Positions 46,833 through 53,615 of a stretch of 57,137 nucleotides of DNA are shown here, one piece after another (the stretch's first letter is position 1; the number at the start of each line of letters is the position of its first letter). The translations under genes were made by a program, and so were the position numbers. This DNA comes from Ignavibacteria bacterium RBG_16_34_14 (GTDB lineage: Bacteria > Bacteroidota > Ignavibacteria > Ignavibacteriales > Ignavibacteriaceae), in assembly GCA_001802865.1 (NCBI GenBank), contig MHAF01000021.1, positions 1 to 57,137 of the forward strand, read 5' to 3'. The notes beneath the pieces were generated by a model that did no database searches, was not told the DNA's origin, and saw only the letters and a program-made list of their open reading frames with translations.

Positions 46833-46877
46833 ATAATCAAAAATCTGTTGCTGTACAGAGAATCCAATTTTATTATG

Positions 46878-47060
46878 AATCCTCTACGAGGATTAAATGA
46901 TATCGTGTCGATTATGTTTCTGCAAATATATGACCTCTACGAGGTCATGTAAAAACACATGTTTCAACAATTTTATAAATTTATTCACCCAAAACATCGT
47001 AGATGTTTTATAATTGTAGAAAGCAATTTTACCATAAAGAATAGATCCTCGTAGAGGATC
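46878..47060. repeat. Left four-hairpin array of Y1 transposase element
   Basis: AATCCTC-TAC-GAGGATT (46878-46894); TGACCTC-TAC-GAGGTCA (46931-46947); AAAACATC-GTA-GATGTTTT (46991-47009); GATCCTC-GTA-GAGGATC (47044-47060). Confidence 0.9.
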
Positions 47061-47076
47061 AATAGAAGGAGGGTAA

Positions 47077-47541
47077 ATGAAACCGGGTGCATTTACACAA
47101 TTGTATATTCATATAGTGTTTGCCGTAAAATACCGCGAACGATTATTGACTAAAGAAATGCGTGATGAATTATATAAATATGTCAGCGGTATAATAGCTA
47201 ATCGAAAACACAAAGTGATAATTATAAACGGAATGGCAGATCACATTCATATATTGATTGGAGTAAATCCTAACGATAAAATATCAGACCTGATTGCCTG
47301 TATAAAAAGGGAATCATCTTTTTTTATAAATTATAAGAAATGGTTTCGGGGAAAATTTCATTAGCAGGATGGATATGGTGCTTTCTCTTATGGACGATCA
47401 CAATTAGATGATATTTATAAATACATAGCAAATCAGGAGAACCATCACAAAATGCGAACGTTCAAGGAGAAGTATATAGAATTATTGAAGAGGTTTGATA
47501 TAAAATATGATGAAAAATTTTTATTTGATTTTTTCGATTAA
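47077..47541 (+). pseudogene. Y1 (HUH) IS200/REP-type transposase interrupted by one in-frame TAG
   Basis: MKPGAFTQLYIHIVFAVKYRERLL...MADHIHILIGVNP...KWFRGKFH*QDGYGAFSYGRSQLDDIYKYIANQENHHKMRTFKEKYIELLKRFDIKYDE; stop at 47362-47364. Confidence 0.88.
47077..47541 (+). mobile_element. IS200/IS605-superfamily-like (HUH/Y1) element core
   Basis: Transposase plus flanking hairpin arrays (46878-47060 and 47588-47765). Confidence 0.8.
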
Positions 47542-47587
47542 ACAATGCAAAATTTAATTGTTGATGATTACAATTAGATACTTTATA

Positions 47588-47765
47588 AATCCTCTACGAG
47601 GATTAAGATGGAGGTCGCTGTTTTATTTTTTACAACAATATGACCTCTACGAGGTCAGATAAAAATCCCTGGTTGAAAATTTCGTTAGGCTGTTCGTAAA
47701 ACATCGTAGATGTTTTACAGTTGTAAAAGAAAATATTTCTCCCCAAAAGATCATCGTAGATGATC
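47588..47765. repeat. Right four-hairpin array of Y1 transposase element
   Basis: AATCCTC-TAC-GAGGATT (47588-47604); TGACCTC-TAC-GAGGTCA (47641-47657); TAAAACATC-GTA-GATGTTTTA (47697-47717); GATCATC-GTA-GATGATC (47749-47765). Confidence 0.9.
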
Positions 47766-47838
47766 AATAATGAAAATTTTACAGAAAAATTACAAACAAT
47801 TGATAATTGTGAAATTCTTTTGGATATGAATTACATAA

Positions 47839-48282: not shown

Positions 48283-48385
48283 AACTGTTAAAACGGTTCA
48301 TAGAAAGTTTTCGGATATCGTTCTCAACGGGATTAATCCCGTTGAGAATACAAGGACAAAAAATGTCCTAACTGTTTCAACAGTT
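48283..48385. repeat. Type II four-hairpin cassette, copy 1
   Basis: AACTGTT-AA-AACGGTT; TTCTCAACGGGATTAATCCCGTTGAGAA (48321-48348, perfect 28-bp palindrome); AGGACA-N5-TGTCCT; AACTGTT-TC-AACAGTT. Confidence 0.88.
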
Positions 48386-53514: not shown

Positions 53515-53615
53515 AACCATTGAAATGGTTAAATAAAATTTTTTCATTCTGTTCTCAACGGGATTAATCCCGTTGAGAGCCTGAAGGCAAAGGCTTTATA
53601 ACCGTTTTAACGGTT
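53515..53615. repeat. Type II four-hairpin cassette, copy 2
   Basis: AACCATT-GA-AATGGTT; TCTCAACGGGATTAATCCCGTTGAGA (53553-53578); AGCCT-N8-AGGCT; AACCGTT-TT-AACGGTT. Confidence 0.88.

Follow-up and report, generated by a model that had tools for sequence, protein, structure and literature searches.

Inverted four-hairpin arrays around a subclass 1.2 Y1 transposase gene: an apparently undescribed REP-like repeat family in several bacterial phyla

Palindromic repeats maintained by a Y1 transposase are known from the REP/REPIN-RAYT systems (the TnpAREP REPtrons, e.g., the E. coli REPtron), whose enzyme belongs to class 2 and is marked by Y---NP. A Y1 HUH transposase also occurs in the IS200/IS605 insertion sequences, such as IS608 and ISDra2; these are mobilized as a whole, frequently have a linked tnpB, and possess a single subterminal hairpin at each end, both in direct orientation. 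For a further branch, TnpAY1 subclass 1.2, Quentin et al. (2018; PMC6006769) give a Y---Q--HH motif, a low copy number, and "no" REP sequences. The published REP screen required a GTAG/GTGG (GTRG) foot, and the hairpins described below were missed earlier because they lack this motif.

The locus that we examined lies in a contig of 57,137 nucleotides from Ignavibacteria bacterium RBG_16_34_14, the whole of which is called the window. A hairpin scan identified two collinear four-hairpin arrays (46878-47060 and 47588-47765) bracketing a Y1 transposase gene (47077-47541), with the following features.

46872..47066, no strand: left four-hairpin array with its end boxes (hairpin scan; single-stranded DNA fold; order and spacing matched in relatives and solo copies)
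46878..46894, plus strand: left H1, AATCCTC-TAC-GAGGATT, outer, forward
46930..46948, plus strand: left H2, ATGACCTC-TAC-GAGGTCAT, inner, forward, with a degenerate TTTCTGCAAATAT box ahead
46991..47009, minus strand: left H3, AAAACATC-GTA-GATGTTTT, inner, reverse, with the box ATAATTGTAGAAA after it
47044..47060, minus strand: left H4, GATCCTC-GTA-GAGGATC, outer, reverse
47077..47541, plus strand: tnpA, 154-codon Y1 (HUH) transposase gene of TnpAY1 subclass 1.2 (Pfam, NCBIfam, and PDB matches; motifs)
47582..47771, no strand: right four-hairpin array, in the same order as the left one
47588..47604, plus strand: right H1, AATCCTC-TAC-GAGGATT
47641..47657, plus strand: right H2, TGACCTC-TAC-GAGGTCA, with the box TTTTTACAACAAT ahead
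47696..47718, minus strand: right H3, GTAAAACATC-GTA-GATGTTTTAC
47749..47765, minus strand: right H4, GATCATC-GTA-GATGATC, with a paired change relative to left H4

Both arrays share one order of perfect hairpins with 3-nt loops, TAC in H1 and H2 and GTA in H3 and H4, and the scan confirmed the eight hairpins that the first-pass annotation had described on the two flanks. All of them are variants of a single palindrome, C(C/A)TC-TAC-GA(G/T)G, read twice forward and then twice in reverse. The same annotation was correct as to the array lengths (183 and 178 bp) and the compensated H4 stems (GATCCTC/GAGGATC versus GATCATC/GATGATC), while the first spacer, given as 36 nt in both arrays, has that length on the right; the left one reaches it only when H2 is taken with a 7-bp stem and measures 35 nt with the 8-bp stem. 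Between 46700 and 48000, we counted 8 hairpins with a stem of at least 7 bp and a loop of 3 nt, whereas 1,000 dinucleotide-preserving shuffles averaged 0.14 and did not exceed 2; in the whole 57-kb window there are only 11, 3 of which are in the other 56 kb. Moreover, the arrays fold as single-stranded DNA better than shuffled sequences do (z = -5.8 for the left array and -4.8 for the right one). The two arrays are identical at 69 of 72 hairpin columns (96%) and at 77 of 115 spacer columns (67%), which bears out the earlier remark that the hairpins are near-identical and the spacers diverged. Elsewhere in the window (48321-48348 and 53553-53578), we could notice two copies of a perfect 11- to 12-bp hairpin, TCTCAACGGGA-TTAA-TCCCGTTGAGA, perhaps belonging to another dispersed palindrome family.

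The window TnpA matches Pfam Y1_Tnp (PF01797; 4e-29), scores above the cut-off of NCBIfam transpos_IS200, and finds ISDra2 TnpA (2e-11) and IS608 TnpA (3e-7) among the PDB structures, while its score with NCBIfam REP_Tyr_transpos (25.8 bits) is far under the cut-off of 80. Its motifs are DHIH, YIANQENHH, and (TAG)QDGY, followed by a C-terminal extension. The features used to recognize subclass 1.2 (Y---Q--HH, HUH, WQ, and a short C-terminal extension) are all found in it, and Y---NP, the mark of class 2 TnpAREP, is absent, its place being taken by Y---Q--HH; the corresponding Y...Q..HH pattern occurs in 75 of 80 relatives. A single internal in-frame TAG (47362-47364) replaces the conserved W codon of WQDGYGAF, and therefore this copy is probably broken; most of its relatives elsewhere have an intact frame, one example being L045 (JACZKK010000114), which is 84% identical. 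No tnpB is present in the window element, and the clade of the window tnpA has about one copy per genome in a survey of 97 genomes, all or nearly all of which are draft or metagenome-assembled (MAG) assemblies.

Relatives of the gene that are at least 69% identical bear the window hairpin family in their flanks, and their hosts are members of Ignavibacteriota, Bacteroidota, Calditrichota, and Planctomycetota, the carriers in the last phylum being Ca. Scalindua and Brocadiaceae; their distribution over several phyla points to horizontal transfer. In close relatives, H3 and H4 are found upstream of the gene and H1 and H2 downstream, and two loci with little flank (L051 and L060) show two hairpins only. 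H4 begins 32 to 39 nt ahead of the tnpA start in relatives with an intact start (32 nt in L055) and 85 nt ahead in the truncated L060. In the window (47044-47076), as in nearly all close relatives, H4 lies just 5' of the tnpA ribosome-binding site, a possible site of self-regulation. A phage or plasmid origin was rejected, since viral contigs yielded no relative and the best plasmid relative is 58.6% identical.

The repeat module is about 80 bp long and opens with an end box TTTAT-A and the hairpin CCTC-TAC-GAGG; after some 40 nt come a TTTCTACAATAAT box and the hairpin AC(C/A)TC-TAC-GA(G/T)GT. Two modules in inverted orientation form the four-hairpin array of about 140 to 190 bp. In particular, the consensus of 87 nonredundant modules reads tTTATtaATCCTCTACGAGGATt, a core-to-core gap of 38 to 45 nt in nearly all cases, and then TTtcTACAATAATnnaACnTCTACGAnGTt. 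Stem covariation was assessed in 368 unique contexts, picked by the 7-mer TCTACGA alone: four variable positions pair in 72 to 82% of cases versus 28 to 54% after shuffling, a comparison that is not a strict probability, since many of the contexts are mutually related. Pairing drops to background past the seventh pair, so that the stem is 7 bp long and the loop is 3 nt. Inner hairpins have the TACAATAAT box ahead of them in 116 of 127 cases and outer ones in 7 of 151, and the box is a candidate recognition or cleavage site. Canonical REP repeats are ruled out, as are CGTC repeats, since none of 278 unique hairpins has a GTAG/GTGG foot and none has CGTC. A structured RNA family was likewise rejected, with only two sub-threshold matches to miRNA models and no Rfam match above chance.

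Arrays without a transposase, which the first-pass annotation had proposed to look for, are present in the genomes of relatives, at about 25 loci in genome G005, about 20 in G017, and about 18 in G002, which belongs to the same genus as the window; smaller sets occur in G010, G022, G075, G001, G029, and G059. The expectation of further copies in the genome or in relatives was thus borne out in relatives (G002, G001, G005, G010, G017, G022, G029, and others) and not in the window's own genome, a 2.74-Mb MAG that is 78.6% complete, where we found no further hairpin copy and no solo array. The order of solo arrays is always + + - -, with 51 to 54 nt within pairs and a middle of 19 to 102 nt in most of them. 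Within the genus of G005, a 162-bp unit recurs between differing flanks with 94 to 98% identity in three species (G005, G056, and G098) and 84 to 88% in a fourth (G102). A gapped two-hairpin pattern gave about 135 matches in 23 of the 97 genomes, compared with about 9 for the reversed control. Of the 10 genomes having a close tnpA, 9 contained the pattern, as did 14 of the 87 lacking one (Fisher p = 5e-6), some of the 14 being chance matches. In the assemblies of about eight genomes, solo arrays are present and a close tnpA is missing, which implies loss of the gene or mobilization by a different enzyme. Tandem clusters of many arrays, resembling BIMEs, are seen at L184 (G075, contig C11, 82-84 kb) and L221 (G102, contig C141).

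Sites with and without an array were compared at a few positions. G002 has a 157-bp array in the spacer of a gene pair read from its sequence as trpD- and trpC-like, and the window genome (G000), in a comparison at only about 70% identity, has the two genes with a short, array-free spacer; from these two forms it follows that the array was inserted or was precisely lost. In G001 (L276, contig C203), the same slot is filled by an unrelated palindromic insert, CCACGACCTTCAGGTCGTAG, so that one slot hosts different repeat families. With respect to the window site, neither the gene nor the arrays are present in G055 (C227) and G002 (C134), where 21 to 30 nt stand in place of about 940 to 1,000, though these may be paralogous sensor-kinase loci. 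When arrays of G010 were checked for an empty site in G035, a decayed array was found at the orthologous place. The L166 slot has conserved flanks and is occupied by other sequence in G000 and G001.

Hairpin arrays mark the whole of TnpAY1 subclass 1.2, far beyond the window. In the sample of 80 relatives, 66 had enough flank, and an identical 5-bp inner stem was found on both sides within 400 nt at 37 of these 66 loci versus 0 of 294 control positions on the same contigs. When the nearest hairpin on the left is set against that on the right at 29 decidable loci, the loops are reverse-complementary in 23 cases and identical in 6 (p = 0.002). The stems are clade specific, with TGGC in Pirellulaceae, GGGC mostly in Verrucomicrobiota, and CCTC/CATC in the window clade, and on the TnpA tree, a quick one with many weak forks, the stem type changes 23 times versus 36 to 43 times in 200 shuffles. 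These comparisons show that the hairpin sequence goes with TnpA phylogeny, not with the phylum of the host. Up to ten hairpins with GGCCCC stems surround one tnpA at L068, and eight with CCGGTGGC stems surround the gene at L123, both at a near-regular spacing of 50 to 65 nt. Four canonical IS605-type loci have no stem common to both sides.

On this basis, we consider it likely that the locus in the window is where a REP/REPIN-like repeat system resides, one with a class 1 (IS200-side, subclass 1.2) Y1 HUH enzyme, and the palindromic repeats are apparently an undescribed mobile family that follows its own transposase branch across several phyla. The comparison of loci and genomes shows that the arrays move and follow the subclass 1.2 enzyme family; that TnpA mobilizes them is suggested by analogy with TnpAREP and the IS200/IS605 enzymes, which serve as the model for its action on hairpins (PMC8266576). 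In this model, TnpA, probably a dimer occupying a pair of hairpins, would recognize them in single-stranded DNA and would cleave beside them, near the conserved boxes, the arrays being presumably copied or moved in trans. The inverted pair-of-pairs would make the unit readable on either strand. The gene tnpA has an array on either side, and at other places the array is a stand-alone, nonautonomous element inserted between genes; the hairpin adjoining the ribosome-binding site may have a role in tnpA regulation as well. In the window genome, the system looks dead because of the stop codon in tnpA and because no solo array was found. The suggestion of a REP/BIME-type, REPIN-like system is upheld by the solo arrays, the stem covariation, the conservation of stems over spacers, and the array-free orthologous site; the absence of the GTRG foot makes it REP-like and not REP.

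The spread of the arrays could in principle be due to DDE-type MITEs, the outer terminal inverted repeats being what moves and the hairpins being cargo. Many arrays of G005, G017, G056, G098, and G102 belong to larger units whose CATAGGCGTCAACTTAAG ends lie some 83 nt away on either side, many of those in G002 belong to units with GGGTCTGTTGCATAAC ends, and a search for an array-free form of the G005 unit found none; given outer inverted repeats at fixed distances in G005, G017, and G002, part of the spread may be hitch-hiking on such MITEs. That the hairpins are passengers altogether seems unlikely to us: the array occurs with two kinds of outer end and with neither in G010, G022, and parts of G002, several G005 copies stop, at one end or both, precisely where the array does, and the different palindromes held by other CATAGGCGTCAACTTAAG-ended units (L290, L295, and L297) imply that ends and arrays assort independently. 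As to the content of these three MITE-like units, found in G017 and G005, central TCCC-type and CCCACGA/AACCGAT-type arrays were observed, and their middles look like landing sites for several hairpin families. At L164, L170-L172, L175, and L178-L181 of G002, the arrays in GGGTCTGTTGCATAAC units are nested centrally in a palindrome, CCCACGACTTAAGTCGTGGG, with AACCGTT..AACGGTT hairpins further out.

The transpos_IS200 match, the annotation of relatives as IS200/IS605 transposases, and a spread over phyla that points to horizontal transfer would also suit an ordinary IS200/IS605 insertion sequence with complex left and right ends. We hold this to be very improbable, given about one clade copy per genome, the lack of tnpB in the window element, inverted hairpin arrays on both sides, solo arrays that exceed tnpA many-fold, and the canonical IS605-type loci without shared stems. 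The collinear window flanks, with their partly similar spacers, could instead mean that a structured intergenic region (a terminator or a regulatory RNA) was duplicated locally around a dead transposase gene, which we judge extremely improbable: identity is 96% in hairpins versus 67% in spacers, solo copies occur in other genomes, the stems covary, the link between hairpin family and TnpA clade holds across several phyla, and Rfam gave no match above chance. A segmental duplication is ruled out by the hairpin-versus-spacer identity together with the solo copies.

A repeat population is now tied to an enzyme branch that stands next to the true IS200 transposases and was formerly listed as repeat-less, and this bears on how single-strand Y1 transposases became REP-maintaining enzymes and on how REPINs move. 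The array with the gene, the array alone, and the array-free site provide a test bed for the step from insertion sequence to REP system, and the association gives annotators of Bacteroidota and Planctomycetota genomes a simple rule for labelling much of the scattered palindromic DNA. We lean towards the view that in subclass 1.2 as a whole a REP-like symbiosis arose independently for a second time, with class 1 enzymes each keeping their own co-diversifying inverted hairpin arrays, recognized with no GTRG guide, and with the gene still crossing phyla; its scope would comprise Bacteroidota, Ignavibacteriota, Planctomycetota, Verrucomicrobiota, and Acidobacteriota. No description of repeats with subclass 1.2 was found in the openly accessible journal literature that was searched.

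Compared with subclass 1.2 as presented in PMC6006769, the window TnpA and its relatives are alike in Y---Q--HH, WQ, DH[IV]H, a length of about 150 aa, the C-terminal extension, the low copy number, and the occurrence in Bacteroidota. However, that study reports no REP and generally no IS200-type ends, whereas here arrays surround most loci with enough flank, and, different from that account, the members are also found in Planctomycetota, Verrucomicrobiota, Acidobacteriota, and Calditrichota. The subclass 2.6 and class 3 TnpAY1 with "atypical secondary structures" resemble the present system in having GTRG-less hairpins beside a Y1 gene and, for subclass 2.6, hairpin copies elsewhere in the genome, but they represent other protein classes, and four-hairpin inverted arrays are without description in the consulted parts of PMC6006769. 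With IS200/IS605, the system shares a homologous Y1 HUH transposase and hairpins near the ends; as the first-pass annotation had rightly remarked, the layout is not that of simple single-hairpin ends, since each side has four hairpins, in inverted orientation, and arrays are found without tnpA. Several near-identical copies per genome, as in IS200/IS605, were not seen, the clade being present at one copy per genome in the 97-genome survey. The likeness to REP/REPIN-RAYT extends to a low-copy Y1 gene flanked by inverted palindromes, to palindromes dispersed between genes that outnumber the gene (in relatives, not in the window's genome) and track its clade, and to inverted pairs around the gene (REPIN/BIME), represented here by + + - - arrays. 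Different from REP/REPIN-RAYT, the enzyme is of class 1 (Y---Q--HH) and not of class 2 (Y---NP), and the repeat has no GTRG foot, a 7-bp stem, a TAC loop, a four-hairpin basic unit, and the extra TACAATAAT box. Thus, the system works like REP/REPIN-RAYT yet departs from that family in two of its defining features.
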